A DNA stretch of 64,000 bases from an uncultured Clostridium sp. (GTDB lineage Bacteria > Bacillota > Clostridia > Lachnospirales > Lachnospiraceae): the NCBI GenBank assembly GCA_945915475.1, contig CAMEFI010000010.1:1-64000 (forward strand), written 5' to 3'. Position numbers and translations under genes: made by a program. Positions 18,456 to 51,875 of this stretch are shown piece after piece. Each line of letters opens with the position of its first letter. Position 1 is the stretch's first letter. The notes below the pieces were generated by a model. That model was not told where the DNA came from. It was given only the letters and a program-made list of their open reading frames with translations, and did not search any database.

Positions 18456-18481
18456 TATTCTCCGAAGGGTGAATAAATCCT

Positions 18482-18510
18482 TTGCAACTACATAAAGGTT
18501 GTGATATAAT
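18482..18510 (+). promoter_or_regulatory. pnp promoter
   Basis: TTGCAA (18482-18487), 17-nt spacer, TATAAT (18505-18510). Confidence 0.65.
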
Positions 18511-18523
18511 ATTTAAGATTGTG

Positions 18524-18609
18524 GTAAGGCAGTAACCGAGACTTCTGAAGTACTGATAGTTTTTATGTGTTAGATGACTATCATTAGTTCAGTTGTTTCG
18601 GTGGCTTAC
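18524..18609 (+). promoter_or_regulatory. Long stem-loop in pnp 5' leader
   Basis: GTAAGGCAGTAACCGAGA pairs with TTTCGGTGGCTTAC; GTACTGATAGT pairs with ACTATCATTAG(TTC). Confidence 0.6.
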
Positions 18610-18637
18610 ACAAAATATTTATTTAAGGAGAACAAAT

Positions 18638-31329: not shown

Positions 31330-31373
31330 AATGAAAAGACTGTTTTTCTAAAAGCATAGAAAGACAGTTTTTT
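31330..31373 (+). terminator. Terminator after pgsA
   Basis: AATGAAAAGACTGTTTTTCTA..TAGAAAGACAGTTTTTT. Confidence 0.7.
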
Positions 31374-31460
31374 ATATTGAAGATATTTTGAAATGAATAA
31401 AATAGTATGTCGAGTATAAATATAATAATTTTAATAATAGTTATTATTTTATAATATTTA

Positions 31461-31489
31461 TTGACCTTTTTCGACAAAAAATGTATTAT
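31461..31489 (+). promoter_or_regulatory. Strong sigma-A-like promoter ahead of the HD-GYP/surface locus
   Basis: TTGACC (31461-31466), 17-nt spacer, TATTAT (31484-31489), in very AT-rich DNA. Confidence 0.65.
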
Positions 31490-31494
31490 ACAGA

Positions 31495-32211
31495 GTGGGA
31501 GGTTTTATGATAGTTTATGATAAGGAAGAAATGAAAAAAACAAAAGAGGGATGTTATCCCACACTTTCTAGTTTGTATAGTATTATCCCAAGAGATGTAA
31601 GACTACATATGGAGAGGGTTGGTGTGTACGCTACTGTTTTTTATGATTATTTGTCAGAGTGTTATCCGGATATTGTGGAGCCCCTTCATCATGAGATGGA
31701 TGACTGTATACATGATTTGTTTACTCTGCATGATATCGGGCGGGCTTTTGTTCCAATTCGTTTTCAGAACAAAGCAGGCGGTTTGACAGAAGAAGAGTTT
31801 GAGATGATCAAACAACATACCATATTGACAGCAGACACATTAGATAGTGTATATAAGCTTCCTTTTTCTGACACGGTGAAGATGCATTTGTATAATATAT
31901 CCATGTATCATCATGAAAAATATGATGGTACCGGATATCCTTTCGGTATAAAGGGGGAGCAGATTCCCATTGAAGCCAGAATATGTTCCTTAGCAGATGC
32001 CTTTGACGGAATGACAAGTTGGAAACCTTACCGCAAAAATATGAGTATGGATACTGTTCAGAGAATCATATTAGAAGAAGCCGGTAAACAGTTCCAGCCA
32101 ATTCTTTCCGTTGCGTTTTCAGAATGCATCCATCGTATGCCTATGAATATGGGTGCGGAATGGGAAATGGAGGCAGGTCATTATTTCACAGAGAAGCAGG
32201 ATCATTTATAG
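31495..32211 (+). CDS. HD-GYP domain protein, putative c-di-GMP phosphodiesterase
   Basis: LHDIGRAFVP, HHEKYDGTGYPFGIKGEQIPIEARICSLADAFDGMTSWKPYRKN. Confidence 0.85.
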   Translation: MGGFMIVYDKEEMKKTKEGCYPTLSSLYSIIPRDVRLHMERVGVYATVFYDYLSECYPDIVEPLHHEMDDCIHDLFTLHDIGRAFVPIRFQNKAGGLTEEEFEMIKQHTILTADTLDSVYKLPFSDTVKMHLYNISMYHHEKYDGTGYPFGIKGEQIPIEARICSLADAFDGMTSWKPYRKNMSMDTVQRIILEEAGKQFQPILSVAFSECIHRMPMNMGAEWEMEAGHYFTEKQDHL

Positions 32212-32248
32212 AGATTTTGAACCTGTAAGTTAACAGGATGATAAGAAT

Positions 32249-33199
32249 ATGTCAGATGAAAAGAATGATAACAAGGAACAACTGAATAAGAAATCAGGCA
32301 GTTTAAATGCTGTGGATAAGCAGTATAGAAAACTAGAGAGAAGCTCCCGATTCTGGAATAAGATAGATCCGGCAAACCGCTTCCGACACTGGTATTTAGG
32401 AGCAGCCAGTGTTACCAGAAGTCTTTTTCGCGTGGTGGCGGCATGGCAGACTATCGTTATTTTAACAAGCATTCTCGTGATTTTATACATATTAGCTGCA
32501 TTTTATACGGGAAAAGGAGAATTTGTGATTAAGCTAGACCGTCCCATGGCCAATGAGGGATTTATTCTTTCGGAGAATCAGGATTTCAGTGATTTTCTTG
32601 TGTCACTCAGGGATGATGCGGTGAAGAATGCCACGAATATTTCCATCTACGATCTTCCAAAGGATGTGATGGATGTGGATGGTAAGCATAATGGAGCCAA
32701 TTACGTGGCGTATACGTTTTATCTGAAGAATAAGACAACAAAAGCGCATGATTATCACTATGAATTGTCTGTGCAAAGTACCGCAAAGAGTGCAGATACT
32801 GCCACATGGGTTATGGTTTTTCAGAATGGAAAACAGAATGTCTATGCCCAGGAGAACAAAGGTGGTTACCCGGAATGTCTGTACAGTAAATGGGAATTTC
32901 CTTTTATGGAGTATGCGGAAGACCCCAAGGTGCAGTCTGTGGTGGAAGATGCTGATAAAGCACATATAACGGACGAGATGATAGAGTATCATGAGTTTAC
33001 CCAGGTGGAGGGACTTTACCAGTTTGAAACGGTTCCCTGGAATGCAAAGGATCTTGTATGCATTGGAAGCCGGCAGAATATGGAACCGGACGAGGTGGAC
33101 AAATACACTGTGGTAATCTGGTTAGAAGGGGATGACCCGGATTGTAAAGATGACATATTAGGCGGACATGTGGAGATGTCCATGAAATTTATGTATTAG
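32249..33199 (+). CDS. Single-TM anchored surface protein with C-terminal IWLEG module
   Basis: TM WQTIVILTSILVILYILAAFYTG, extracellular domain ending YTVVIWLEGDDPDCKDDILGGHVEMSMKFMY. Confidence 0.6.
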   Translation: MSDEKNDNKEQLNKKSGSLNAVDKQYRKLERSSRFWNKIDPANRFRHWYLGAASVTRSLFRVVAAWQTIVILTSILVILYILAAFYTGKGEFVIKLDRPMANEGFILSENQDFSDFLVSLRDDAVKNATNISIYDLPKDVMDVDGKHNGANYVAYTFYLKNKTTKAHDYHYELSVQSTAKSADTATWVMVFQNGKQNVYAQENKGGYPECLYSKWEFPFMEYAEDPKVQSVVEDADKAHITDEMIEYHEFTQVEGLYQFETVPWNAKDLVCIGSRQNMEPDEVDKYTVVIWLEGDDPDCKDDILGGHVEMSMKFMY

Positions 33200-33276
33200 A
33201 TGATTGCGATGAAGTTATTTCTACCTGGAAGAATATTATAATTTCGCAGTTGAGATAAAGGAAAAAGACAGAAAGG

Positions 33277-34182
33277 ATGAGGATTATGAAGAAAGAAACA
33301 AAGGAAAAAAAGAAACCAACCATGACGCAGAAAGCAAAGAAAATCCGCAGTATTGTTATGATGTCACTGCTTTGCGTGTTGTTGTTGTCAGCGGCAACCT
33401 ACGCATGGTTTACACTGAGTAATACGGCGAAGATTAGTAATCTGACCATGACGGTGGGGGACGTAACGGGTTTGCAGGTGGCAGACATTGCAGATACAGA
33501 TACAGCAAACGGACCGGCTGATGAGTCTTCATGGAAGGCGGAAACAACTGCAGTAGAATTTAATGGGAAATTGTTGCCTGCTACTACAACAGATGGTATT
33601 GACATTTATGAACCGGTATATGATGAGAGTGGATCGGTTAGCGATTTGAGTGCTTCTGCTACGACTAAGAAACTTGACAGTAATTCAGTCATCAATTCGA
33701 TTGGATATTATGTGGAATATTCTTTTTGGATTCGTGCGTTAGGACCTACAGGTGCGCAAACTACTGTTAAGTTAGCACCTGGTGAAGGTCTTAATGATGG
33801 AATATATAATGCATCGGCGTCAGGAACCTATTCCTTATCATCATCAAAGAATGACGGTATATTACCTTCGGCTGCAGTTCGTGTTAGTCTGATTAATAAT
33901 ACAGCTGTAAAGGTGTATGAACCAAATGCGGATTTTAGTGCTCAAGCTCAAAAAGTTGCTACGGATTCCCGTACTGACAAAACTGCAAAATCATCTGATG
34001 TGAAACAAAAAGTTGACGGAACATATGACAGTAGTGTTGATACTACTGTTTTGACCCTTGAAAATAATAAGGCTACCAAGATTACCCTTAAAATCTGGTT
34101 AGAGGGAACAGATGCCCAATGTGGTAATGAGATTGCTGCCAATAAAATTATAACACAGTTAAAATTTGTTACAGCTGAATGA
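33277..34182 (+). CDS. TasA-like ('AWF') anchored or processed surface/fibre protein with C-terminal IWLEG module
   Basis: SIVMMSLLCVLLLSAATYAWFTLSNTAKISNLTMTVGD leader; C-term KITLKIWLEGTDAQCGNEIAANKIITQLKF. Confidence 0.6.
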   Translation: MRIMKKETKEKKKPTMTQKAKKIRSIVMMSLLCVLLLSAATYAWFTLSNTAKISNLTMTVGDVTGLQVADIADTDTANGPADESSWKAETTAVEFNGKLLPATTTDGIDIYEPVYDESGSVSDLSASATTKKLDSNSVINSIGYYVEYSFWIRALGPTGAQTTVKLAPGEGLNDGIYNASASGTYSLSSSKNDGILPSAAVRVSLINNTAVKVYEPNADFSAQAQKVATDSRTDKTAKSSDVKQKVDGTYDSSVDTTVLTLENNKATKITLKIWLEGTDAQCGNEIAANKIITQLKFVTAE

Positions 34183-34250
34183 TATATATTGGATCAGGTC
34201 ATGGTGATCAATGGAGATATGTAATGATACACACCAACGGAGTATAACAG

Positions 34251-35918
34251 ATGGATGCATTTTTTAATTATTTTTACAATTTCATGAATGACGTGTTTGG
34301 ATATCTTTGGGATATTGTGGTTGCTTTGAAGAATGCCATTGTAGGAATTCTGGATGTCAAGTTTTATATGGATTTGTTTAAGTCCTACAAAGATGATCTG
34401 TCCACCGGTGGGTGGATTGCGGCATTTCTTACACATATTATCATTCTGTTGATTTTTATCCTGTTGGTCTATCTGATCGTGCGGGGAATCCGGGTATTGT
34501 TCCGTTTTAAAGTACCGGTTGTGGAGTACGAGGCCATGAAGGATGAAGTAGTCAAATTAAAACGGGAGATCATGAAGGCCAATTATGAAAAAGACAAGAT
34601 TCTTGCCATGAAGGTCAACGAAATGGGGATGAAGGTGAATCCGGATTTGTTAGATCTTCAAGAGGATGAGGCTGCAGTGACTGCTGAGGAGACAGATCAC
34701 GAAGAAGAAGTCAGAACAGCCGCTGCAGAGAGTGAGAATAATTTAGATGACTTAACGGATGAAGAAAAGGAAGCGTTGGCTGTGGCACAGGCAGAGGGGA
34801 AGCCGGTTCAGAAAGTGAATGTGGGAGAATTACGTTTTCCAAAGTTATCTGCGGTGGATACATACTATCATTCCGAAGATTATGTGGCACCACAGTTCCC
34901 AATGAATTATACATTAGAAGAACTTTGTATGGCATTTCGTAATTTCGCAGCTTCGAAGCTGGGGCTTTATTATGAGTTGGAAGTCATCCGGGAAGTTTTT
35001 GCTTCCTTTGGAGCAGCCAAAATGCTGATTTTACAGGGTATTTCCGGTACCGGTAAAACTTCCCTTCCATATGCACTGGGACAGTTTATCAATAATCCGA
35101 GTCTGATATGCTCTGTTCAGCCGTCCTGGCGTGACCGGACAGAACTTTTTGGATATTATAATGATTTTACCAAGAAATATACGGAGACAGACTTCTTAAA
35201 GACAATATATGAATCCCATTATCAGGAGAACATTCGTGTGATTATATTAGATGAGATGAACATTGCCCGGGTAGAGTACTATTTTGCAGAAATGTTATCC
35301 ATTCTGGAACTGCCACGGGCGGAGGAACGTTATATTTCTGTGGTATCCAGCAAAGCGGAGAATGATCCGGAGAAGATGATCGATGGTAAGGTCTGGATTC
35401 CGGACAATGTGTTTTATGTAGGAACCATCAATAATGATGATTCTACTTTTGCGGTAGCAGATAAGGTATATGATCGTGCAATTCCTATTGATTTAGATGA
35501 CCGGGCTACCGTATTTGAGGCACCGGATACAGAAGGAATTCCAATTAGCATGGATTATCTCACTTCTTTATATGATAAGGCAAAGAAGGATTATCCATTA
35601 TCAGAGGAAAGCCTCATGGAACTGGACAAGTTGGATACATACCTGATTGAACATTTCCGATTGACTTTCGGTAACCGTATTTTACGTCAGATGAAAGATT
35701 TTGTACCGTGTTATGTCGCATGTGGTGGTACAGAGATGAATGGAATTGATTTTATGTTTGCTAAGAAAATCTTACGTAAATTTGAATCTCTTGGACTTGG
35801 ATTTATCCGGGACGAGATTGACGGACTGATTGATTATCTGAATCATGCCTTTGGAGAGGATAATTTCAAAGTGAGTAAAACATATTTAGCCCGGCTGAAG
35901 AAGATGAGTGGGGCATAA
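34251..35918 (+). CDS. Membrane-anchored McrB-like AAA+ ATPase
   Basis: N-terminal TM FLTHIIILLIFILLVYLIVRGI; Walker A LQGISGTGKTSLPYAL, Walker B VIILDEMNIARVEYYFAEML, sensor YVGTINNDDSTFAVADKVYDRAIPIDLD. Confidence 0.8.
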   Translation: MDAFFNYFYNFMNDVFGYLWDIVVALKNAIVGILDVKFYMDLFKSYKDDLSTGGWIAAFLTHIIILLIFILLVYLIVRGIRVLFRFKVPVVEYEAMKDEVVKLKREIMKANYEKDKILAMKVNEMGMKVNPDLLDLQEDEAAVTAEETDHEEEVRTAAAESENNLDDLTDEEKEALAVAQAEGKPVQKVNVGELRFPKLSAVDTYYHSEDYVAPQFPMNYTLEELCMAFRNFAASKLGLYYELEVIREVFASFGAAKMLILQGISGTGKTSLPYALGQFINNPSLICSVQPSWRDRTELFGYYNDFTKKYTETDFLKTIYESHYQENIRVIILDEMNIARVEYYFAEMLSILELPRAEERYISVVSSKAENDPEKMIDGKVWIPDNVFYVGTINNDDSTFAVADKVYDRAIPIDLDDRATVFEAPDTEGIPISMDYLTSLYDKAKKDYPLSEESLMELDKLDTYLIEHFRLTFGNRILRQMKDFVPCYVACGGTEMNGIDFMFAKKILRKFESLGLGFIRDEIDGLIDYLNHAFGEDNFKVSKTYLARLKKMSGA

Positions 35919-35967
35919 CACAACGTTGTATTTCTGCATGGAACGACATAAGAAGAAGGATAAGAAT

Positions 35968-37125
35968 ATGGTATACGATGAATATTCAGATGAAGTGTTA
36001 AATGCATATGCCAAGATGACCGGAAAGGCAGAAGGAGATATTGAAGAGGATCCATACTATCAGTATTTTTACAATCTCTTAGAAACGGGTCGCAACTACG
36101 TCAAGTATTCCTATGTCCGTCTGGTCAAGGAAGTAGATGAGACCTGGGTTAATGCAATTGAAGAGGCGTTGCCATCCCTGCAATATGTTGTCATGCATCC
36201 CCGTAAATATATTGAAGAGGATAGAGAAATTGTCAATATTGCAATGGCAAGAAATATTACGGCAGAATCCGTGCGGCATTTATTGTCCCATAGCAATTAT
36301 ATTGATGAATACCGGGAGGATGGAACGGTGATCCCGAATAAGATTCTCAATGTATATAAGGAAGAATCCCTGAATACTTATGAGAATCGTTTTATCTGTA
36401 CACTGATCGCTGAATTGCAGTTTTTTATCAATAAACGGTTTGATGCCATTTTTGAGGCCAGTAAAGATGAATTAGGCGTTAATTTTGAAGTAGATTCCAG
36501 TATTGATAACTATACGGAAACGGTGGACTATTCCCTGCGTATTAAGATCCGGGATAAACAGACGGATACAGAAAATGAGTTTGAAAATAAAGATACTTTT
36601 GCAAGAATCATACAATTGCATCGAAAGATCAATATGTTAGTCTCCACAGAATTTGTATCCACAATGCGGCGTTTTCCGGCGGTAAAACATCCCATTGTTC
36701 AGACCAATGCCATTGCAAAGAATCGTGATTATAAGGCCTGTCATAAATTATGGAATTTTATTCATTCCTATAATCAGGTTGGCTTTAAGGTGGATCTTGT
36801 GAAGCAGGATCCCAATATTTCCAAGTCTTTTGAACAGGATATTTATCATTCCTTTCTATGGAATTATGCCATGCTGCATAACTATATGGAGGATGTGGAT
36901 GCTTTGAATATTAACCGCGAGACAAGAAAAAAAGTACTGGATATGCAGGGAATTCGGCAGTTGTTAGAAGAGATTGTGGCAGGTACAGATATACCGGATG
37001 CCAATCTCCGTAAGATTGTAGATAACGAACTGAAAAACATCCAAAAACGAAGAAAACAGGAAAAAGCAGCGGCAGAAAGAGTAGTGAAACAGCGTGGAAA
37101 GAACAGTCTGAGAAAGCGGGGATAA
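35968..37125 (+). CDS. DUF2357/McrC-N-like partner protein (start chosen at ATG 35968; ORF track uses GTG 35908)
   Basis: VIPNKILNVYKEESLNTYENRFICTLIAELQFFINKRF signature; no PD-(D/E)xK seen; very basic C-terminus. Confidence 0.6.
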   Translation: MVYDEYSDEVLNAYAKMTGKAEGDIEEDPYYQYFYNLLETGRNYVKYSYVRLVKEVDETWVNAIEEALPSLQYVVMHPRKYIEEDREIVNIAMARNITAESVRHLLSHSNYIDEYREDGTVIPNKILNVYKEESLNTYENRFICTLIAELQFFINKRFDAIFEASKDELGVNFEVDSSIDNYTETVDYSLRIKIRDKQTDTENEFENKDTFARIIQLHRKINMLVSTEFVSTMRRFPAVKHPIVQTNAIAKNRDYKACHKLWNFIHSYNQVGFKVDLVKQDPNISKSFEQDIYHSFLWNYAMLHNYMEDVDALNINRETRKKVLDMQGIRQLLEEIVAGTDIPDANLRKIVDNELKNIQKRRKQEKAAAERVVKQRGKNSLRKRG

Positions 37126-37127
37126 CT

Positions 37128-37781
37128 ATGAAAAAAGTATTGTGCGTCATCAGGGATATTGCATTTGTACTATTTATTCTTGCTGTATGTGGAATGATTT
37201 TTCTTATGTCTTCCGGCAGACATGTCTCAGTTGCAGGATACCAGGTGTTACGGGTTCTTACCAGTAGTATGGAACCGGCAATTGCAGAGAACACCTGTAT
37301 AATCATAAAAGAATATCCGGCAGAGCAGTTGAAAATCGGGGATATTATTACATTTACATCCGATGATCCTCAGATTCAGGGATATTATAATACCCATCGG
37401 ATTTATGATATTGTGGAAGATAATGGGGAAACTCTTTATATTACAAAGGGGGATGCTTCTCCTGGCGTGGATGCATATCCGGTGCATCCACAACAGGTGG
37501 CCGGAATATTTGTGAAAGAATTACCGGGAGGAAGAATTCTCGGTAAGTGTTTTCTTGCATTATCAGATAACCGGGTCTATTTTCTGGTGATTATGCTGCC
37601 TTTGACTTTGTGTCTGTTATCCTATTTCTGGCAGATTGTGGGACTGGTAACCGGTCGATATGATGACACGGAAGAAGAGGAAGATGCAGCGGATGAAGAT
37701 GAGATTGCACAACAGGATTGCGAAGAGAGAATAGATATGGGAACAGAAGGTATGACGGAATCTACAGACCAGGATATGTGA
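37128..37781 (+). CDS. SipW/ER-type (S26B) signal peptidase I
   Basis: VLTSSMEPAIAENTCIIIKEYPAEQLKIGDIITFTSDDPQIQGYYNTHRIYDIVEDNGETLYITKGDASPGVDAYPVHPQQVAGIF: Ser/His active-site layout, TMs at both ends. Confidence 0.85.
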   Translation: MKKVLCVIRDIAFVLFILAVCGMIFLMSSGRHVSVAGYQVLRVLTSSMEPAIAENTCIIIKEYPAEQLKIGDIITFTSDDPQIQGYYNTHRIYDIVEDNGETLYITKGDASPGVDAYPVHPQQVAGIFVKELPGGRILGKCFLALSDNRVYFLVIMLPLTLCLLSYFWQIVGLVTGRYDDTEEEEDAADEDEIAQQDCEERIDMGTEGMTESTDQDM

Positions 37782-37805
37782 CACAGAAGCAGGCGGTGAT
37801 GATGT

Positions 37806-38900
37806 ATGCGAAAAGATCAACAAGAGAATACAGGAATAAAAGGGAATCCTACGCATTGCATTCATCAGGTGCATTTGTTGGGGAAGGATTGGGACCTCAA
37901 GATTATGTCTTATGTGATGCTGGTTGTACTGATGGTAGCTTTGATTGCCGCTACGGTTGCCTGGTTTTTTTATATTAAGGTGGTGGCTGTCTCTAACATG
38001 GAGTTTACCACTGCGTCAAGCGACAGCCTGAAGGTAGAGATAAAAAATGCAGAGAATCCCAATGCCACAGATGGCTTTATTGAATTAGAGGAAGGGGAAG
38101 AGGACAGTGTTTTTGTCGACCTGGATATGCCGGTATTTGAAAATGTGGAACAATATGATTTGGTGGATGAGAATTCCTCTGTCGAAAACACCAATGGTAC
38201 ATCCAAGAAGGTCAATCGGATGGCTCCCGGTGTATATGGTTCATTGACTATTCGGCTGACACCACTGAATCCGGAGATTAATCATTACCGAATCACACCG
38301 GCGGCTTTATTTACTTATGCTGATGGTAAGAAGGATACCGTTTCAGAAACCGGGAAAGTGAATGCCATCCTTGGCAAGGAGAAATTACAGGCATTGGCAA
38401 AAGGACATATTTTGTTTTTTGCAGACCGCAGAGAGATTCCATCCGATTCCGGGGGAACCATTACCATTGGAACAGATTCCAAAGCCATTACAGAATATAC
38501 CCATAATGGGAAATATGTGTTCTGTGATTCTATTGATGCGGATATCCCCATGGAGGGGGAACTTTCATGGAACGACACGGAACAGAAAGGGGAGACTCTT
38601 ACCATAACAGTATATTGGTATTGGCCCTATGAGTATTCCAATCTAAGCAGTGGTATTCAAAGTCGTATTCAGTTGCCGGCAACTGAATTTACAGAGGATG
38701 TTGTTCGGAATCCGGAAAGGTTACAGTATTTTGACAAAGATAAAATGCAGGAAATGTTGAATTCTTCCATAACATGGAATGAGATTCAGTTATATGATTT
38801 TGCAGATACACGAATTGGAACTGATGTGAAGAGTATTCGAATGCATTTGAAGGTGGATGGTTATCATGCAGTACAGACACAAAGCGAACCAAATGAATAA
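37806..38900 (+). CDS. Anchored 'AWF' surface protein, TasA-like leader
   Basis: YVMLVVLMVALIAATVAWFFYIKVVAVSNMEFTTASSDSLKVEI, then beta-rich extracellular region. Confidence 0.55.
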   Translation: MRKDQQENTGIKGNPTHCIHQVHLLGKDWDLKIMSYVMLVVLMVALIAATVAWFFYIKVVAVSNMEFTTASSDSLKVEIKNAENPNATDGFIELEEGEEDSVFVDLDMPVFENVEQYDLVDENSSVENTNGTSKKVNRMAPGVYGSLTIRLTPLNPEINHYRITPAALFTYADGKKDTVSETGKVNAILGKEKLQALAKGHILFFADRREIPSDSGGTITIGTDSKAITEYTHNGKYVFCDSIDADIPMEGELSWNDTEQKGETLTITVYWYWPYEYSNLSSGIQSRIQLPATEFTEDVVRNPERLQYFDKDKMQEMLNSSITWNEIQLYDFADTRIGTDVKSIRMHLKVDGYHAVQTQSEPNE

Positions 38901-39717
38901 GGTAGACGAGGAAATGGGTTCTTCTGCACATGACAGGATGTCAACAAAGAGAAGAAAACAGATAAGTGCCAATCAGAAATGGTTGCTGGCAGCAATGATT
39001 GAAGTCTGTATTCTTTTGATGATGGGATTTGCATGGTATACCTATCTGGCGCATCGCAAGGTACTTTCCGAGGAAAGAGAAGTGATGGCTCCTTATTATC
39101 TGTACCTGGTAGAACCAAACGGCAAGGATGAATTCCAGCTTACCGTTGGAAATCTTCACCCGGGAGAGACCAAACAGATTATGTTAGGTGTAACGAATCA
39201 GCCACCGGAGGGAGAAACGGAGACATCTTATCAAATCAGTAAGAATTCCAAATTTCATTATGAATTGGAACTGGCATACACACAGAATCTTCCGGTAGAA
39301 TATAAAGTATACGAATTAGCGGAAGCATCGGAAAATACTCCAAATGACAGTACTATAACTGTTGAATGGAAAGATACGGACAATTCAGTTATTACAAAAT
39401 CTTTTGCAAAAGATACACAATTGACGAAGAATGCAAAGTCGGACACATTGACTTTGGAGAATAATAAAGAGATGTATGGAGAAGACAATCCGGTGAATGT
39501 GGGACAGTATGATCTGTACGATAATGTGAGTGGTATTCCTTTTGATCTGACGACAAAAGTAGAGGATAATAATGTTACCTTTGATCTGGATTATTATCTG
39601 ATTGAGATTGACTGGAAAGATAATATTCAGTTTTCGGATTACCTGAAAGAGACCGATCTGGTATATGTGATTGTAAATGCAATGCAGATTGAACCGGAGA
39701 AATCTGCCGGCGAATGA
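38857..39717 (+). CDS. Anchored 'AWY' surface protein, TasA-like
   Basis: KWLLAAMIEVCILLMMGFAWYTYLAH..., APYYLYLVEPNGKDEFQLTVGNLHPGETKQIMLGVTN; start overlaps upstream gene (alternatives 38866, 38890). Confidence 0.55.
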   Translation: MVIMQYRHKANQMNKVDEEMGSSAHDRMSTKRRKQISANQKWLLAAMIEVCILLMMGFAWYTYLAHRKVLSEEREVMAPYYLYLVEPNGKDEFQLTVGNLHPGETKQIMLGVTNQPPEGETETSYQISKNSKFHYELELAYTQNLPVEYKVYELAEASENTPNDSTITVEWKDTDNSVITKSFAKDTQLTKNAKSDTLTLENNKEMYGEDNPVNVGQYDLYDNVSGIPFDLTTKVEDNNVTFDLDYYLIEIDWKDNIQFSDYLKETDLVYVIVNAMQIEPEKSAGE

Positions 39718-39744
39718 GAACAGACACCTTAAAGGAGATATAAG

Positions 39745-40719
39745 ATGAAGAAACAAAAAGAATCCGGAAGACAACTTCATAAAAAGAAATACAGAGTGGT
39801 TCTGGGATTTTTCACTTTTTTTATTTTGCTCTGTCTTGCAGGGGGAACAATGGTGGCAAAGTATTATGCCGGACGCAGGAATAAAGGTGTTGCAACGGCA
39901 TCCAGTCTCTATTTCACCAGTAACTTATTGAAAAATGTAAGTAATGTAACAGAAGATAATTATCCGGTCATTTATAATACAGATGCCTGGGATGGGGTGA
40001 ATCCTTACCAGTTTAGTCTGGAGATTCGTAATTATCAGAATCAGTTATTGTACAATGACAGGAATCTGGATATACAGTATCAGATCAACTTTCAGCTGGT
40101 GGGAACAACGGATGGCGGCTCTTACCAGGTGACATACGGCAGTGAAACAAAGACGATTACCTCAAATTCGGCTTGTTCCTTCACTGCCGGATTAGCTGGT
40201 GGACAGGCAAGAGCGGATCAGTTCTCTGTTTCTTTTGCAAGACCGGAGGGGAATACCAGTTCCACTTACAGATCCGTTGGAATTCGTGTAACAGCAACCC
40301 CTGTTTCACCGGATTATGTTGCCAATTATGAGACATTAGGAGGAATCCTGTATGCAAGTATTGTATCCTCCAAGTTTGAGTTAAAGGGGGAATTCTCTAA
40401 AATTCCGACAGGAAAAGTCGGGCAATATGCAGGATTTCCATATACAATTTCCTATAAGCCGGGAGTGGATGGTGCAACCCGTAAGATAAGAATTACATGG
40501 GATTCCTCAAAACTTCAGTTGGATCAGTTCAGTCCGTATTATGCATCAAAGCAGGAAGATTCAGGAGAGAATAACAAAGATTATATTGAAATTACCATGG
40601 AACCATATGCATCTATGGATATTTTATTTTACAGAACAGATGCATTTGATCCGAATACTACCATTGATGCATTAAATGGGCTTGTTGTGATTACAGATAA
40701 AGGAGGTGTTACTCCATGA
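39745..40719 (+). CDS. Surface protein with 'GGT-x-AKYY' leader
   Basis: VVLGFFTFFILLCLAGGTMVAKYYAGRRNKGVATASSLYFTSNLLKNVS, then beta-rich region. Confidence 0.55.
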   Translation: MKKQKESGRQLHKKKYRVVLGFFTFFILLCLAGGTMVAKYYAGRRNKGVATASSLYFTSNLLKNVSNVTEDNYPVIYNTDAWDGVNPYQFSLEIRNYQNQLLYNDRNLDIQYQINFQLVGTTDGGSYQVTYGSETKTITSNSACSFTAGLAGGQARADQFSVSFARPEGNTSSTYRSVGIRVTATPVSPDYVANYETLGGILYASIVSSKFELKGEFSKIPTGKVGQYAGFPYTISYKPGVDGATRKIRITWDSSKLQLDQFSPYYASKQEDSGENNKDYIEITMEPYASMDILFYRTDAFDPNTTIDALNGLVVITDKGGVTP

Positions 40720-43700: not shown

Positions 43701-46700
43701 GATACCTCATGCCGGATTGAGCTTTCCGGGATGAACAGTATAGATGGGAACATTACCTTTTCGGAAACCAATGATACAAAGAATAAGACCGGATTATCCG
43801 GACTTCCGGCTATGGTCAGTTCTTTTATCACCGTGATTGGAAAGCCGGATCAGACCGGGGGCAGTTTACGCTATACAGGAAGATGCAGAATGCAGGTGAA
43901 TAATCTTACCATGACTGGAATTACCCAGAATATTACCAGCGGTAATAATGCTTCGGCAATGGGTGGTCTGCTTGGTTATCAGTGGGCAGATGTGAATGCC
44001 GGACTGGATGAGATAGCAATAGGTGACGAATCATCTCCTGTAGCACTTTCAGGAAATGCCGGTTTTGGTGGCTTGCTCCATGGGGTTTACGGACGTATAG
44101 ATGCCAGTCAGATAACCTGGAAAAAAGCTTCCATTGACGCAAAAAATACATCCGGTGTAGATAATTGTGCTCTGTTTGTAAGGGATGGTCAGTACCTGTA
44201 TCTTTCTGTAAAAGATTATGTAGTGGAATCCGGCGTTGCGCTTTCTAATTATTCCGGTACCTGTTTTGATGAACTGGTTGGCTTTAACCGGGGTGGCAGT
44301 GATGAAAATCATGGTGGAATTGTATCCATTAGCAGTAGTTCCGGTAAATATCTGGGGAAAGGTGGCAGCAGCTATCAAAGCTATGATGCAAAAGTAGGTG
44401 CAACAGATAAGAAGAATACAGAAACCCGTTATTATTATGATCTGGATACCCTGGTCTATCCGGCAGCTTCGGATGATTATGCCGTATTAGACTCACCGGA
44501 AGATATTATGATCTGGCATTTGTTGCATTATGTGAATCCGAATATCCGGAAGACGGTTTCGGATTCGGTACCGGATTCTCTGCCGACAGAATATACCATC
44601 ACTGGAAGTATTGATATGACCGGATACAGTATTTATCCCACACCGGTAGAAAAGGAATCTTATCAAGCAACCGGTGCAACCATTATACTGAATGTTCAGG
44701 ATATGATAACCGGAGAACAAAATAAGAGTGTTCCCATGTATCCGGATGACAAGAATTATCAGCATTACCGGATGCAGTCCGGTCTCTTTTATGATGTGGC
44801 CGGTCTTTCCGTGGAAGGACTTACTTTGAGTGGAACATACAGTGCCTTTTCTACGGATAGTAATGTGTCCGCCGGAGCGTTGGTGTCAGGAAAAATCTAT
44901 GGACTGGAAACAGGTAAAGACAGCAACAACAAGACATTATATGATGCAACGGTTAAGAATGCATTTCAGAATATCACATTAAGCAATCTCTGGTGTGTAA
45001 GCAGCAGTTCTATGGATTACGCGAATCCGGTGGGGTTGATGATTGCGAATATTGCATCCGGGTCAGATGTTGCGTTAGATGGAATCGCTATGACAAATTA
45101 TCAGGATGGCGATGTGACACAATCGAAGAAAGCGGCCAGTGCACTGATTGGTAATGTTGGTGGGGCAAAAGCCACCTATATCACATTGTCATTTAAAAAT
45201 ATGGATATTGCCGATGCGGCACAGGGTAAGTCTTCCGATGGTCTTCATTCTTCAACACAGGATGAGGCACTTTCCAAGGCATCCTTTATCTATTCTTATG
45301 ATTATGAAGCAAACTGTACCGGAATCTATCTCTTTGATTATGCGGATTATAGGGAAGGCAGGATTGTTAAGCCTTCCACAAAAAAGATTACCTTAGGGGA
45401 AGAATTAGGAGATAATAATGGAAGTCCCAATTATGCAGTAGAAGAGTACTTTGATAAAGATATGCCGGTGGGACAATTATTAATACATTCAGATGAGATT
45501 GCTTATGCCAGTGAGAATTATCTGCCCTATGTTTCTCAGAAGATTAATGACCGGCACATTCTGGTGAATCCGAAGGTGGGAAATATTACGAAAGGCTGTG
45601 GAACATATGAAGATCCTTATCAGATTAGTTCCACCAGACAGATGCTTTCGCTCTACCGGTATCTGTATAAAGAAGCAGATTTTGCTAATATTCTCCAGGC
45701 CGGTAACTGGTCCATCAATGCCATGGGGACAGACGAAACATTTTGTGATGGCAGTGATGTATCCCATACCTTGCAAACCTATGCAGATAAAGAAAGCGGA
45801 TTTCCAACCACGGAACAATTAAGTCAGGCATATTACCAGATTACCGGAGATCTTGATTTTAGTGCATATCCGGAATTTACGGGATTTGGATCAGAACAAT
45901 ATCCATTTATCGGTGTGTTTGTTGGAAAAGTGGAGAATTCGAAGTATCCTGTGATTACCATGTCCAAGCAGAATAGTGCAGAAATGGCCAGCTATGGTTT
46001 TATTCAGAATGCAAAGGGATGTGTAGTTAAGAATCTGTGCATTCAGTATGCTCAACCGGTTCAGATCAATGCGAAAGTAACAAAAACAGATGATAAGACG
46101 AACCAGGAAGTGACGGTTGATGAAGGTGGAACCGGCGGAGGGGTAATTGCCACAGTACTTGGTGGTGAGAATATCATTGATCATGTAATCGTGAAAGGTG
46201 CGGTTGCATCCGCCAACAGCAATGTGGAATGTTTCAACCTTAAGAATACGAAAGCTGTAGTTGGCGGTTATGTTGGTATGGTTCAACGGGGTGGTGTGAT
46301 TCTTCGAAATGTGGATGTGGAAAGTCTGCAGCAGTTTACGGTATATTATGGAGCACCAACAGATAGTAATGTTACTGCAAGTGATTATATATATACCTGC
46401 AGCATGGTTGGCAGAGTGAAGGATGGCTACGTTGTCTATGATGGAGAACAGGCCGGTAACACAAAGGAAGTCTTAAGGACAATCTCTGACTTTTCAGCAG
46501 GAAATGTCTCTGGTAATACGGAATCGAACACTGCAACGACACTTCCACTAAGCCGGTCCTATGCCGTTGTAAATGGCGCATATCTAGATAGTCAGATTAC
46601 TGCTGATGAGAAGATCGTATATAGTACAACCGGGTATTCTGTTCCGAATGCTGCGGGACTGCAGGTGCTATCCATGGCATTAGATTCCGGTGTGTTGACA

Positions 46701-49700
46701 TATAAGGGCAGTGATAACAAGGTGGCTTACAGTGTAGCTTCCAGACAGAGACATGGAAATTATGATAATGTGGGTAATAGTACAGCAGATGATGATAATA
46801 GAAAAAATGTTATTCTGTCTGATAATTTTACATTAAATGGTACCTTTACCCAACAATATGGCAGTTTCCTTTCCCAATATGTCAGTTTTTCTTCTGATAC
46901 TATCTGGGCATCCGGAAGCTATTCTGACGGAACCGGAGTACTGGCGCTGAATCAGGAGGGTAAGAATTATAATCTTACCGGTACTACCTATGATATGTCT
47001 GTATTTGGAACGGCATTCCGTGGGCTGGGTGCCCGGTATTTTGAAGAAGATAATGTGTTCCGGTGTAATCTGGCAGGTCCTGACGGAACCCCGGCGGTAA
47101 TCAAACTTCATATGATTGTGGATGGAATTCAGGATGTGACGGATGCGGCTTTGCTGAATAATGTGATAACCACGACAGCCTCCATAACCATATCCAATAT
47201 TACATTATCCGGTTCCATTGAAAACAAAAGCGAGATAGAAGAAGAGAATATTTCTGAAACGGATCAGAAACGGAATGCAGCCGGGTTTGTCAGTACATTA
47301 AAGGTGAAAAATGGAATTACTTTTCATAATGTTTCCCTGAATGACCTTACGGTAAATTCCCAGGGCTATGCCGGTGGATTGGTAGCATATGATAACAATA
47401 ATAAGACAATTACATTGACAAATTGTGGAATCAACACAGAAGCTGACATAGCAGATACGGTGTATACAATAGTTACCGGTATGTCGGATGTGGGAGGATT
47501 GATTGGATATACGAATTCGGAAGTCACCTGTACACTGAGTGCCATGAATCATTTGAAGGTTACCAGTGGAAATGTAAGTGCTTCGGAAGGACAGAAAGAT
47601 ACGGGAGGCAATGCCGGAGGTCTGGTTGCACGGATTGATGATAGAATATTAAAGGTGAATCAGAATGATGCGGCCGATATTGTGTACGGAGATTGTGTTA
47701 CCGTACAGTCAGCCGGAATCCCCTCCAAGATTGGTGGTCTGGTTGGATGGTGTAAAAGTGCCTATGTGAATCGGCTTACCCTCACCAATGTGCATATTGA
47801 AAATGTGTATGATGGTCCCGAGATTCCAGAAAAAGATATCAATAAAGATAATGACAATCTTCTGGTAGGAATAGCAGGAGTTGTAGGATATATACCTAAA
47901 AGTGGTGTTGTTACGATGCGTTCTGTAACTGTAGGAAGTGATAGGGAAAGTGATTCGGTTACCATAGGTATGCATCTTAATAAACTAAGTACCAATTTCG
48001 GTGGAATTGGGGGTCTTGTTGGAAGAACGGGCCCGGATAATACAGAATTGACTTTGACGGACTGCCATATAAAAGGCTGCAAAAAAGCGGATGGCTCCTA
48101 CACTGCGGTGATTTCCGGTGGGGTGAACGTAGGAGGTATGGTCAGTAATACCCGTACTTTTACAGGAGATAATTTATCCGTAGAAAATGTCAAACTGGAA
48201 ACATCAAGATATGTTGGAGGCATAATCGGATACCATGAAGTCGATAAAACTTGTACATTAAAGAATGTAAAAAGTACGAATGTACATATTGTATTTTTGT
48301 GTCAAGGATTTCAGGATGGCGGTGTGGCCGGCGGAATCTGTGGTCAGGCGGTAGGAAACATTTCGTTACAAAATGCATCTGTAGATGGTCTTGTGGTGGA
48401 ACCGCAATACTGTAATGCTGCAGGTGGATTTGCAGGCGTGTTTGGTTCTTCCTATAATCATAATGGCACAATGAAGGTTGATGGTGACAATAATTCCGTT
48501 AAAAATAGTAAGATATGTGGTGGCATTGTTGGCGGAGGCATTGGATATATTTATTATAATCACGAAAAGAAAACAAATATACACCAAAAGATTACAATTC
48601 ATCAGAACATGATGATTGCCTATCAAAATTCATTATGGAAAACAAATAATGTTGCAAAAGATTTTGGAACAGGGAGCGCAGGCGGGTACATCGGTGCAAA
48701 CGGAAGCAAAAGTACCAATCTGGATATGGATGATGTAACCATAGAGGGTAATCTGATTGCGGGTTATTCCGGTAACAGTACTGGAAATGTATTGTATCTT
48801 GGCGGCTTGGAAGGAAGAGCTAAGAATGCCGCTGATATATATAATCTGCGCCTTCAGGATAACTATATAGGAATGATGAAAGGGTCAGATACGAGTAATG
48901 ATAATTTGAGTAGTATAAAAGCCATGAACGTAAGTAATATTGATACATGGAAAGAACAATTATATTATGTTCAATATTCAGATGGGACTTACAAATATAA
49001 CACGACAGCGCATAGCACTGATTTAAACAAGGAGACACAATACCAGTATTCCTATCAGCAGGGAACCATGATCGGATATTATGATACGAGTGGTTCCAAT
49101 GAAGCTTTCAGCCGGATGATCAATGTCAGTGTAGCCTATACAGACCCGGCGTATCGCCCGGTTTCGGATGTGGGTATGGATCCTGGTTATAATCTTACAT
49201 CGAACCAGGATATGTATGGGAAAAGCCGGGAATTTGCTGCAATCGTATATGATGGTGAGGCGAAGAATCATAAGGAAGGTGTGAAACTGCCGGAGGGGCT
49301 TCCGGATGATATGCAGACCTTCATAGGTATAGATCATTATATTTTTGGTAATCTGGAACATATTATGACAGATTCGAACCAATGCTATTATTGGCTTAAT
49401 AAGAATTATCAGAAGAATGGATGGCTGGATGATACTGCGGAGACAAAGGATGTATTATCTATCAGCAACATTTATAAGAATACATATAAGGATAATAATG
49501 GATATAAATCCAAATTAAAGATAAATGGTACAATCATTCCTATGGTAGTATATGATTCGGCAGATAGCGGTTCTTTGGATGAGGTGATTGAGTCCTATAT
49601 TAATATATTGACAAACAATTCCGGAGCATTAAACAGTAAAGTGGCGGCAAATAATAACTCGTTAGCGGTAACAACACATAAGATTCGGATTCGCACTGTT

Positions 49701-51806
49701 GATAGCACAACAAGTATATCCATAGAAGGAGAGGAAGGAGATACCAGTGTACAATATAAAAAAGGTGATGATTTAAAGACCTATCAGTTTGAAACTGCTT
49801 CCCAGGGAGATGAATTAGATCCTGATACAGGCGAGGGAACCTTTACATTGGTTCATATTGTTTATAATGACACGAATGGTAATCCAAAATGGTCGCTGGA
49901 TATTCCCGTGTATGTGGAAAAACGTTTGAAGATATACAGTAATATGCGCATGTTGTCCGGAACCCGTTATGATTCACAGCTTGTGAAAACGGAAGGAAAA
50001 TTCATGACGGATGGGGATGATAATTCAATAGTATTACCAATGGGTACAGGTTATACAATCTATTGTGAGTATGTATATGCGGATATTTTAGAAGGTATGA
50101 CCAATATTTCCATACCTAAGACCTTTGTGATTGATGGAAGGAACGATCAGACCGGAACTACATCGGATATTTCTTTTATCAGGGGAAGTGAAATAACGTT
50201 AATCCCAATGGATAACCAGAATCATCCCGGTGTTCCGTATTATTATACCGTATCAACGGAAGGTCAGACAGAAATTAATTTTGAGGATTTTAAAGATGCT
50301 TCCGGTGCTTCATATGTTTTGGAGAATATTGTGGGTATGACAAAGAAAGAGACATATACGGATGTGTGCAATGCTTCCTATTCCAATGTTGCAGTGGAGC
50401 AGTTTATGATCTATGTCAATCCTCCTGAGATTGACAAGACAGAATATTCTCTTTATAAATTACATGTGGAACCAAAACAGCTTTCTACCGAATCGGAATA
50501 CAATAACTTAAGAACCAGAACAGATTATGCGGAACACTGTTATGAAAGAGTGAATGAACTTCCTGGTGTGAAGTATAATATTGTAGATGATGCTACAGCT
50601 CTTGCGTCGGACAGTAAATTGACAAAGAATGGAAGTGTTAAGCTGTCTTTGCAGTACAATGTGACTGCATCCTCTGCATATTGGAAGTCAACAAGGAGTG
50701 AAGATCTTTATCTGGATATCGCCTTGTATTTGAAAAAGAAGCCAAAGGGCAGTACATCCACATCTAAGGTAGCATTGCCGGCGGGAACGGTTGTTTCTTA
50801 TGGAGATGCAGATACGGCTGTGATTGGTGCAAATCAGGAGAATATTTATTATTATCAGGGAATCAATAGTGGTAAAACAGACAAAACCTATATTCAGATT
50901 AATAAACTGTCCGATGATATCAAAAAGGATATTTCCTTCCAACTGGATTTTTCAAATGCAGATATGTCAGCCTTTGAAACGGACACAGAAAGCCAGTATT
51001 CGGTTGTGGCAGAACTGATAGTGACACCGGATAAAGAAATGCCGGCTTCAGGAGATGTCAAGGATACATGGGAAGCTTACGTAACTGCGGAGGCAAAGGA
51101 TGAGATTGGTTTTGCACTGGAAGCAGAGAATATGATGACACTAGGCATGAATCAATATAAGCCGGAGGAGACTGACAGCGGTGTAGTTCCGTATACAGCA
51201 AGTATTGCTTTCCCGGAAAAGGATAATGCTTCTTTTTCTTCTAAAATGTATACAATTGTGTATCAGATAGAAAAAAAGACATCCCGGCAGGATGCCGATG
51301 GTAAACCGGTATATGAAACATATACCGGCCCGGATGTTTCTCTATATCTGGGAAATATGGATGTTTCACAGGGAAAAGCTGCAGCATCAAATGCTACAGA
51401 TTCTGTAACTTCCGGCAAAGGACTGGTTGCAGTTTCCTATCAATTTAAAGATACGGATATCACAACCGGATTGGATCTGCAGGATGGTCAGACACCTTCT
51501 TCTGAACATGCTTCGAAAAATGTAATCCGGACACATTGTACATTGGTAGCAAACTGTGATAAGCTTGCAATGACGAACTACAGAGTACGTGCTTATCTGA
51601 TTGTGTCAGATGATCTGTCATCTCTCAAAGTGGGTGGTAGTGCAATCAGCAGTGTTGATAATGGAGATAATGTGGAATGTAGGATGAAAGGACAGCTTGT
51701 GAGACAAGGCAACTGGCCGAAGGTTTTATCAGGAGAAATATCAAAGGATGCTGAGAATGATTTCTTTGTTATCACTGTTGCAAAACTGAAGACAGATATG
51801 CAGTAA
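40716..51806 (+). CDS. Giant (3696 aa) secreted GLUG-like/beta-solenoid surface protein
   Basis: Signal peptide MKKQFAKIFFILTWVLFCVLGIEEYKVEA; more than 30 GG-h-h-G units (VLGGLVGCVENSD, HVGGFAGYVENSD, NFGGLFGKVEKK, DVGGLIGYTNSE, KIGGLVGWCKSA...); no LPxTG or C-terminal TM. Confidence 0.85.
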   Translation: MKKQFAKIFFILTWVLFCVLGIEEYKVEAADGLVYVENQPLQPGTYIINSVDGWIALQKYSKEQDLSQCTFEYLLNDTSSTYDLTIAKGFTGVGSKEHPFSGTIITNYTSGNIVLKTEKPLFQYLSTAAKVNKMNIQVNGSECLGGLAQYLVADQSLTPLDLNGITITGTTDTYITTNNAEDDCKYAGGFFAHVINEQTNPVTIQFSNVSLSVPVKVPVDGLGAGGWIGHISGKMVLSFAKDYEITNTVIPCDNAEGNVLGGLVGCVENSDVTLQTTGTATVSCSADIGTDSNRKQTAGSVFGKVVGSHIQMDADLQVTGGKLYGRYAGGFAGEIDTSNITWNHTFIRKQSILYPAASSGEESGWSAVGMFVGKMTASNIMPGDKLSGNVATLYGGDVTGSYSVVGKATNSNNTEKYHVGGFAGYVENSDILLTAEHGLDVVNFTTDGTAGNISAGIGCYVANDAAQTAHKIQFIHVKDQNNTRVRLVSWRGNCGGLIGKAVVNQNSQVELSDCNFNVVLVETCSGAGDNGTWSMGIGYLDNPDCSDSLFGIRNVDCRITNANKSTNFGKGFVFVNKTLKLEAYGGIIGIADADVQIDGVVLDHSVSDMDASNVSNYGGLFGVIKNQAADTNTLQGRVRKVSVSNVSIGRNAFYNIRDNFGGLFGKVEKKTAVSLTGTMELNGGSDGVPKQSVSVSKKYLGSVAGFIDNALIYLEPDIVWHPSDSIKSNEIGNYGAVIRNQIVGDTKLIDNYQVTGTIGSNIDSVVDLLRLAIVLNTQGAFMPTGNTTDTFDTIRAKAYTLTQNAYDLTDSGLTCMGRNDSEGLKYPFTGSLKGVSGGTTIQYHINGYGKGQTNLGLFPAVGDGASFENITLNYEIAYLRLEYYTNNWYYQVPDDEHAGGLACFASGDITLKNVRYIGKMKDYPQEQYKISNKKFNGDYDYLGGLIGQYTGANGKQLVMESISGSMTDFTCQDPTHIMGGVIGIVNTDQVAGTTSDTSCRIELSGMNSIDGNITFSETNDTKNKTGLSGLPAMVSSFITVIGKPDQTGGSLRYTGRCRMQVNNLTMTGITQNITSGNNASAMGGLLGYQWADVNAGLDEIAIGDESSPVALSGNAGFGGLLHGVYGRIDASQITWKKASIDAKNTSGVDNCALFVRDGQYLYLSVKDYVVESGVALSNYSGTCFDELVGFNRGGSDENHGGIVSISSSSGKYLGKGGSSYQSYDAKVGATDKKNTETRYYYDLDTLVYPAASDDYAVLDSPEDIMIWHLLHYVNPNIRKTVSDSVPDSLPTEYTITGSIDMTGYSIYPTPVEKESYQATGATIILNVQDMITGEQNKSVPMYPDDKNYQHYRMQSGLFYDVAGLSVEGLTLSGTYSAFSTDSNVSAGALVSGKIYGLETGKDSNNKTLYDATVKNAFQNITLSNLWCVSSSSMDYANPVGLMIANIASGSDVALDGIAMTNYQDGDVTQSKKAASALIGNVGGAKATYITLSFKNMDIADAAQGKSSDGLHSSTQDEALSKASFIYSYDYEANCTGIYLFDYADYREGRIVKPSTKKITLGEELGDNNGSPNYAVEEYFDKDMPVGQLLIHSDEIAYASENYLPYVSQKINDRHILVNPKVGNITKGCGTYEDPYQISSTRQMLSLYRYLYKEADFANILQAGNWSINAMGTDETFCDGSDVSHTLQTYADKESGFPTTEQLSQAYYQITGDLDFSAYPEFTGFGSEQYPFIGVFVGKVENSKYPVITMSKQNSAEMASYGFIQNAKGCVVKNLCIQYAQPVQINAKVTKTDDKTNQEVTVDEGGTGGGVIATVLGGENIIDHVIVKGAVASANSNVECFNLKNTKAVVGGYVGMVQRGGVILRNVDVESLQQFTVYYGAPTDSNVTASDYIYTCSMVGRVKDGYVVYDGEQAGNTKEVLRTISDFSAGNVSGNTESNTATTLPLSRSYAVVNGAYLDSQITADEKIVYSTTGYSVPNAAGLQVLSMALDSGVLTYKGSDNKVAYSVASRQRHGNYDNVGNSTADDDNRKNVILSDNFTLNGTFTQQYGSFLSQYVSFSSDTIWASGSYSDGTGVLALNQEGKNYNLTGTTYDMSVFGTAFRGLGARYFEEDNVFRCNLAGPDGTPAVIKLHMIVDGIQDVTDAALLNNVITTTASITISNITLSGSIENKSEIEEENISETDQKRNAAGFVSTLKVKNGITFHNVSLNDLTVNSQGYAGGLVAYDNNNKTITLTNCGINTEADIADTVYTIVTGMSDVGGLIGYTNSEVTCTLSAMNHLKVTSGNVSASEGQKDTGGNAGGLVARIDDRILKVNQNDAADIVYGDCVTVQSAGIPSKIGGLVGWCKSAYVNRLTLTNVHIENVYDGPEIPEKDINKDNDNLLVGIAGVVGYIPKSGVVTMRSVTVGSDRESDSVTIGMHLNKLSTNFGGIGGLVGRTGPDNTELTLTDCHIKGCKKADGSYTAVISGGVNVGGMVSNTRTFTGDNLSVENVKLETSRYVGGIIGYHEVDKTCTLKNVKSTNVHIVFLCQGFQDGGVAGGICGQAVGNISLQNASVDGLVVEPQYCNAAGGFAGVFGSSYNHNGTMKVDGDNNSVKNSKICGGIVGGGIGYIYYNHEKKTNIHQKITIHQNMMIAYQNSLWKTNNVAKDFGTGSAGGYIGANGSKSTNLDMDDVTIEGNLIAGYSGNSTGNVLYLGGLEGRAKNAADIYNLRLQDNYIGMMKGSDTSNDNLSSIKAMNVSNIDTWKEQLYYVQYSDGTYKYNTTAHSTDLNKETQYQYSYQQGTMIGYYDTSGSNEAFSRMINVSVAYTDPAYRPVSDVGMDPGYNLTSNQDMYGKSREFAAIVYDGEAKNHKEGVKLPEGLPDDMQTFIGIDHYIFGNLEHIMTDSNQCYYWLNKNYQKNGWLDDTAETKDVLSISNIYKNTYKDNNGYKSKLKINGTIIPMVVYDSADSGSLDEVIESYINILTNNSGALNSKVAANNNSLAVTTHKIRIRTVDSTTSISIEGEEGDTSVQYKKGDDLKTYQFETASQGDELDPDTGEGTFTLVHIVYNDTNGNPKWSLDIPVYVEKRLKIYSNMRMLSGTRYDSQLVKTEGKFMTDGDDNSIVLPMGTGYTIYCEYVYADILEGMTNISIPKTFVIDGRNDQTGTTSDISFIRGSEITLIPMDNQNHPGVPYYYTVSTEGQTEINFEDFKDASGASYVLENIVGMTKKETYTDVCNASYSNVAVEQFMIYVNPPEIDKTEYSLYKLHVEPKQLSTESEYNNLRTRTDYAEHCYERVNELPGVKYNIVDDATALASDSKLTKNGSVKLSLQYNVTASSAYWKSTRSEDLYLDIALYLKKKPKGSTSTSKVALPAGTVVSYGDADTAVIGANQENIYYYQGINSGKTDKTYIQINKLSDDIKKDISFQLDFSNADMSAFETDTESQYSVVAELIVTPDKEMPASGDVKDTWEAYVTAEAKDEIGFALEAENMMTLGMNQYKPEETDSGVVPYTASIAFPEKDNASFSSKMYTIVYQIEKKTSRQDADGKPVYETYTGPDVSLYLGNMDVSQGKAAASNATDSVTSGKGLVAVSYQFKDTDITTGLDLQDGQTPSSEHASKNVIRTHCTLVANCDKLAMTNYRVRAYLIVSDDLSSLKVGGSAISSVDNGDNVECRMKGQLVRQGNWPKVLSGEISKDAENDFFVITVAKLKTDMQ

Positions 51807-51875
51807 AAAAATACACAAATTTACTTAAGTATCCGGGATAATTCTTTGTGGATACAAGGTAAATTTGTGTATTTT
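51807..51875. terminator. Bidirectional terminator between giant gene and EAL gene
   Basis: AAAATACACAAATTTACTT ... AAGGTAAATTTGTGTATTTT hairpin (19-20 bp stem) with internal GTATCC/GGATAC. Confidence 0.8.

Follow-up and report, generated by a model that had tools for sequence, protein, structure and literature searches.

What does a membrane-anchored relative of McrB do between the genes of surface proteins and the gene of a signal peptidase? The question arises from a window of 64,000 nucleotides (the whole stretch of DNA analysed, positions 1 to 64,000 of contig CAMEFI010000010.1 in assembly GCA_945915475.1) from an uncultured Clostridium sp. of the Lachnospiraceae. A first-pass annotation, made from the sequence alone, had proposed that ten of its genes form an undescribed locus for the assembly of a surface fibre or adhesin.

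Layout and conservation of the ten-gene block

The ten open reading frames all run on the forward strand at the coordinates first given for them (Table 1), with intergenic gaps of -44 to +77 nt. The strong bidirectional terminator proposed after the giant gene was recovered as well, as a hairpin of -30.7 kcal/mol (z -8.5), and a second hairpin at about 31334-31374 (z -7.0) terminates the upstream CDP-alcohol phosphatidyltransferase gene. The promoter claimed at 31461 did not hold up. Promoter-like sites occur at chance level (38, versus 34 +/- 5.6 in shuffled sequences), and its putative -10 box ends only 18 nt 5' of the ATG at 31507, which, with GGGAGG upstream, is the likely true start of the HD-GYP gene. 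Weak internal terminator-like sites number 10 in the gene run, for 6.1 +/- 2.4 expected, and an Rfam search of 28-55 kb returned no match, hence no c-di-GMP riboswitch. We treat the ten genes as a unit because their order is conserved across genomes; the transcription signals are not the basis for this.

Table 1. Features of the locus and its downstream border, with positions in the window
Feature	Position	Strand	Characteristics
HD-GYP (HD_5) c-di-GMP phosphodiesterase-like protein, first gene	31495..32211	+	PF13487 3e-23
IWLEG protein	32249..33199	+	cytosolic juxtamembrane NRFRHWYLG..RSLFR, one TM (68-86), AFYT leader motif, extracellular domain
AWF1	33277..34182	+	SipW-type leader (TM 25-43, AWFT) and beta-rich ectodomain
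Membrane-anchored McrB-like AAA+	34251..35918	+	TM 59-77, Walker A GISGTGKTS, Walker B ILDEMN, NxD motif GTINNDDSTF
DUF2357 partner (McrC N-terminal-like)	35968..37125	+	PF09823 3e-10
S26B (SipW/archaeal/Sec11-type) signal peptidase, Ser-His type	37128..37781	+	TIGR02228 1.5e-21
AWF2	37806..38900	+	SipW-type leader protein, TM 37-55, AWFF
AWY	38857..39717	+	SipW-type leader (AWYT), NLHPGETK motif
AKYY	39745..40719	+	leader protein (VAKYY); same place conserved across loci
Giant secreted protein, 3696 aa	40716..51806	+	N-terminal signal, GLUG-like GGxxG repeats
Bidirectional terminator hairpin	51808..51875	.	separates the giant gene from the convergent EAL gene
GGDEF-EAL protein	51923..53476	-	convergent with the giant gene; PF00563 6.7e-61, PF00990 2e-8

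We fetched 28 Lachnospiraceae loci by their AAA+ gene alone and then searched each for every gene by profile. Gene presence was scored in six-frame profile searches, as longer antisense ORFs led a simple ORF caller to miss HD-GYP in L032, L044, L045 and L056, AWF2 in L038 and AWY in L039. The conserved order is HD-GYP, IWLEG, AWF1 (one or two copies), AAA+, DUF2357, S26B, AWF2, AWY, AKYY and giant. It is complete and in the same orientation in 20 of the 28 loci, seven more match as far as the end of their contig permits, and one (L053) has no recognisable S26B gene. The genes flanking the block vary between loci. Within it, loci that are more alike in AAA+ are also more alike in each other gene (correlation of pairwise identities, r 0.77-0.92, Mantel p 0.001). 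Co-occurrence in other genomes was a point on which the first-pass annotation had staked its reading, and the genes are found together there, in the same order and co-diversifying. AAA+ and DUF2357 are the most conserved members of the set (median identity 0.70 and 0.61) and the leader proteins the least (AWF1 0.33, AKYY 0.30, AWF2 0.26); such a pattern, conserved machinery versus variable cargo, would be expected of surface-exposed parts.

An AAA+ of this type is held by 17 of 249 genomes of the same family, and the one genome sampled from the same genus is without it. The core IWLEG-AWF1-(S26B)-AAA+-DUF2357-S26B also occurs in other families of Clostridia and in Erysipelotrichaceae/Bacilli (L059-L067). 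Two S26B genes flank the AAA+-DUF2357 pair in many of the more distant loci, and IWLEG is present in nearly every S26B-linked locus. In a tree of the AAA+ proteins, the S26B-linked ones form a single clade of 63 sequences (support 0.82). We consider the unity of the gene set well supported.

The cluster is also carried by two isolates with sequenced genomes, Lachnospiraceae bacterium 28-4 (L052) and 10-1 (L055), which we take to be cultured mouse-gut strains; their giant gene extends beyond the fetched stretch. Its study therefore need not depend on metagenomes alone.

Signal peptidase, leader proteins and giant protein

The match of the signal peptidase to TIGR02228 exceeds the cut-off of that profile, while its match to the Bacillus-specific SipW profile NF046067 (1.2e-20) is not above cut-off; among PDB entries it matches SEC11C (1.3e-11). 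The residues S47-M48-x-P50 and N88-T-H90-R are invariant. Elsewhere in the genome there is a second, weaker S26B-type peptidase (G000 C35:13586-13930, L139; 2e-13, below cut-off).

Five proteins of the block (IWLEG, AWF1, AWF2, AWY and AKYY) begin with a membrane helix followed by an AWF, AWY, AFYT or AKYY motif, as in SipW substrates, and knowledge of the peptidase family makes processing of these leaders by S26B likely. AWF2 is in place in every Lachnospiraceae locus of L031-L058 that reaches its position, and shares with AWF1 the leader together with some 30 residues that follow (hhalign 97.7%, E 2e-12). AWY, whose true start is probably downstream of 38857, resembles AWF2 across the leader region, and in AKYY the residues K39-Y-Y are invariant. 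AWF1, present in one or two copies per Lachnospiraceae locus and in more elsewhere, is a candidate for the major fibre subunit. Its C-terminal 47 residues are common to IWLEG (E 4e-6), a protein with invariant cytosolic residues and no relative in Pfam or the PDB, which is a candidate base or anchor subunit. PDB sequence searches with the leader proteins gave no match, and PHROGs held no useful relative.

An AF2 model of AWF1 is beta-rich (pLDDT 83.9). Foldseek returned no significant match for it (best E 0.016, low TM-scores); the non-significant neighbours include the donor-strand filaments 7pnb, 7ueg, 2wmp and 5iqo, with archaeal threads (7pnb), bundling pili (7ueg) and the chaperone-usher pilin domains PapG and FimG among them. 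The donor-strand principle of beta-sandwich subunits is possibly shared with the archaeal threads (Saci_0406) and bundling pili, the resemblance of AWF1 to them being below significance. The archaeal thread gene has no clear assembly machinery nearby (PMC9715654), and therefore no McrB-like ATPase is reported there.

The giant protein contains 20 GG[hydrophobic]xG motifs, versus 0.64 in shuffled sequences, and Pfam searches with pieces of it gave a sub-threshold Glug match (0.06) alone. It has no LPXTG, and its C-terminal end, ...VITVAKLKTDMQ, is conserved in the complete orthologues.

As in tapA-sipW-tasA of Bacillus subtilis, a SipW-class Ser-His peptidase lies here beside cargo with an A-[W/F]-F/Y-type leader, and donor-strand assembly of beta-sandwich subunits, as in TasA fibres, is plausible. 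The peptidase and leader proteins would suit a plain biofilm matrix operon of the TasA/SipW kind, with AAA+ and DUF2357 as unrelated passengers, as would the fact that TasA fibres form by donor-strand exchange with no reported ATPase (PMC9674648). We nevertheless find this very improbable. In practically all loci, of Clostridia and Bacilli alike, the pair is placed between the cargo and the peptidase, in a collection fetched through AAA+ with no use of the neighbouring genes, and it is the pair that is best conserved of the whole set. Moreover, PF12389, the TasA family, has no match in the entire genome, the leader proteins of the window included, and no leader protein scanned across loci scores above its threshold, an AWY member coming closest at E 0.059. 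Unlike TasA, the cargo falls outside the M73/TasA family, and the AAA+/DUF2357 pair, the giant protein and c-di-GMP genes belong to the set. Since no ATPase has been reported for the building of TasA fibres, the pair is the feature that sets the system of the window apart; for the same reason, fibres of this sort do not in general require AAA+. As originally noticed, SipW-type processing is indeed combined here with a membrane AAA+ protein, a combination distinct from TasA/SipW loci.

A membrane-anchored McrB/McrC-like pair

Walker A, Walker B and sensor-1 are all intact in the AAA+ protein, which matches AAA_5 weakly, McrB PRK11331 at 2e-7, PDB entry 6hz4 at 6e-5 and PADLOC PDC-M26A at 6.7e-35. 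The core of its GTINNDDSTF motif is invariant in an alignment of 29 AAA+ members (with one unresolved X), I or A preceding the motif. Cytosolic relatives read GTVNIDESTY, and this comparison sets the register: N-x-D, then D/E. Complete AAA+ proteins of the S26B-linked clade have an N-terminal TM around residues 42-81, or at 75-93 in a protein whose start is extended; it is absent from the soluble relatives L020-L030 and L066. A Lys/Glu-rich segment at about residues 93-125, judged by eye, is likely a coiled coil.

The DUF2357 partner, whose conserved start is 35968 and not 35908, matched no McrC nuclease family, and a PDB sequence search with it gave no match. In a low-confidence model (pLDDT 65), its C-terminal half is mostly helical with a long charged helix at 344-384; the model is too poor for a fold search with it to be meaningful. 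In one locus (L059, 11613-15539) the DUF2357 ORF, at 1308 aa, is roughly three times as long as usual.

An assembly of such parts has been given a name, CoCoPALM, in one paragraph of a paper that defers its analysis to a later one (Bell et al. 2024, eLife, PMC11090510). As characterised in that paragraph, CoCoPALM has an NxD McrB-like GTPase/AAA+ with an N-terminal TM and coiled coil, a McrC-like DUF2357 partner, usually with a coiled coil, and linked signal peptidases. The AAA+ of the window carries the NxD rather than the NxxD motif and the N-terminal fusion of TM and coiled coil (the latter by eye); its partner is a McrC-like DUF2357 protein (PF09823) with a charged C-terminal helix; and wherever an S26B-linked locus extends that far, L053 excepted, S26B follows DUF2357. 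Because every testable feature is present, the window is best filed as CoCoPALM by its features, our own tree being one of these loci only. Of the claim that the locus was undescribed, the cargo set, the gene order and the c-di-GMP link stand as new, and the core of AAA+, DUF2357 and signal peptidase had already been named. The cargo set, the giant protein, the order of the operon and the link to c-di-GMP seen here are all missing from the CoCoPALM paragraph, and the main text makes no mention of SipW or biofilm. We found no later CoCoPALM paper, so that as far as we found the system is unstudied, and the literature linking SipW with DUF2357, or McrBC with pili and signal peptidases, yielded nothing beyond the CoCoNuT paper and its preprint.

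A McrB-like AAA+ and DUF2357, the McrC N-terminal domain, are what the pair has in common with McrBC Type IV restriction and CoCoNuTs, and McrBC systems restrict DNA (Bell et al. 2024, PMC11090510). This ancestry, together with the matches to PDC-M26A and McrB, would fit a membrane-sited anti-phage device of McrBC/CoCoNuT descent with the surface proteins as its sensors or receptors, a role that we nonetheless regard as hardly likely. Unlike McrBC and CoCoNuTs, the pair is membrane anchored, has extracytoplasmic partners and lacks a recognisable nuclease or methylcytosine-binding domain. Searches for nuclease, HEPN and methyltransferase families found none among the ten products, whereas CoCoNuTs, according to the paper that describes them, always carry or neighbour a nuclease (PMC11090510). 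In these loci it is signal peptidases, leader proteins and c-di-GMP proteins that are conserved as partners, and the gene order is stable and co-diversifying, unlike that of typical defence islands.

A sister group of the clade (L130-L134, L077 and L078; support 0.94) has the arrangement AAA+(TM)-DUF2357-AAA+(TM), after which come extracellular proteins with a TM anchor; among those scanned, two contain transglutaminase-like PF01841 (3e-21 and 8e-22). No S26B was found in this group. We read it as a second extracytoplasmic use of the McrBC-like pair, apparently unnamed.

Cyclic di-GMP genes and a proposed mechanism for the locus

The HD-GYP motifs HDIGR and HHEKYDGTGYP are intact in the first gene of the window and likewise in 25 of the 25 Lachnospiraceae ORFs listed; they are degenerate in L118, L120, L125 and L069. 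The limits first drawn around the locus were right for the ten genes but missed the c-di-GMP link beyond HD-GYP, as the GGDEF-EAL gene lies just past the called end. Its product has lost the GGDEF motif, keeps EALVRW and reads DNFG for DDFG, and may be inactive. Orthologues adjoin the locus in L081 and L082, convergent on the giant gene, and in L039, upstream of the block. Bacilli versions of the locus have EAL genes inside the gene run, and in other families short EAL-like proteins are encoded upstream of IWLEG (L121, L122, L075 and L123).

We quantified this proximity in 25 genomes, 14 of them from one family. Of the 22 EAL-bearing genomes, 18 have an EAL gene within 20 kb of AAA+ (1.96 expected, P 4e-17); for HD_5 the count is 12 of 23 (1.8 expected, P 1e-8). 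These P values treat genomes as independent. EAL is also near AAA+ in 7 of the 9 EAL-bearing genomes of other families, and in three genomes (G581, G261 and G323) the sole EAL of the genome sits at the locus. The c-di-GMP link of the locus is well supported.

In these same three genomes the first-gene slot (L118, L120 and L125) holds degenerate HD-GYP/EAL proteins without catalytic motifs, which may be c-di-GMP sensors rather than enzymes. The Bacilli/Erysipelotrichaceae version has a nucleoside-phosphorylase-like protein between EAL genes (L059 at 18367-19089, PF01048 7e-11; L061, L062 and L064).

In our judgement the locus is probably, if far from certainly, a Lachnospiraceae version of CoCoPALM, a surface-fibre assembly system with a giant adhesin, a membrane McrB/McrC-like NTPase and c-di-GMP gating. 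From its parts we infer five steps. AWF1, AWF2, AWY, AKYY and IWLEG would be exported via Sec and stay tethered by their N-terminal membrane helix. The S26B peptidase would then cleave the leader at the AWF/AWY/AFYT-type motif and free an N-terminal strand, through which the beta-rich subunits could polymerise by donor-strand insertion, carrying the giant GLUG-like solenoid protein as adhesin or tip. On the cytosolic side, a ring of the NxD-type AAA+ protein, stimulated by the nuclease-less DUF2357 protein, would serve as an NTP-driven platform for assembly or quality control, probably with the conserved cytosolic segment of IWLEG in its grip. Finally, c-di-GMP enzymes or sensors, HD-GYP as first gene and the EAL protein at the border, would gate assembly. 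That the locus forms a fibre is plausible; the role given to AAA+ is a guess, for which the IWLEG cytosolic segment is the most likely handle.

Quality control is a frequent role of AAA+ proteins anchored in membranes. The locus might thus build no fibre at all and encode a c-di-GMP-controlled quality-control or sorting machine of the membrane that matures and releases separate surface proteins and the giant, a reading helped by the dissimilarity of the cargo proteins outside the leader and C-terminal segment and by polymerisation being a step that we infer. We think this unlikely, as several paralogous subunits that have a strand region after the cleavage site in common are reminiscent of major and minor pilins, and donor-strand pilins appear among the weak fold neighbours of AWF1. 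We favour secretion, cleavage and donor-strand assembly under an NTPase and c-di-GMP because this reading uses all the conserved parts. More tentatively, and as a serious possibility that falls short of probable, a McrBC-derived membrane NTPase may have been repurposed from cutting nucleic acids to powering or gating donor-strand surface fibres in monoderms, with c-di-GMP as the on/off signal; it would then form an energised, Sec- and S26B-dependent class of pilus unlike sortase, type IV, chaperone-usher and TasA fibres.

New here are a complete cargo set, made of five SipW-type membrane-leader proteins and a 3696-aa GLUG-like giant, a conserved gene order and a strong c-di-GMP link. For CoCoPALM, so far a name only, all the parts are now listed, with a candidate set of cargo proteins and an input from signalling, and its function therefore becomes testable by a few deletions. 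If our reading is true, the motor of a restriction system would have been reused for surface assembly, and an adhesion and biofilm system would be revealed in gut and rumen Clostridia.
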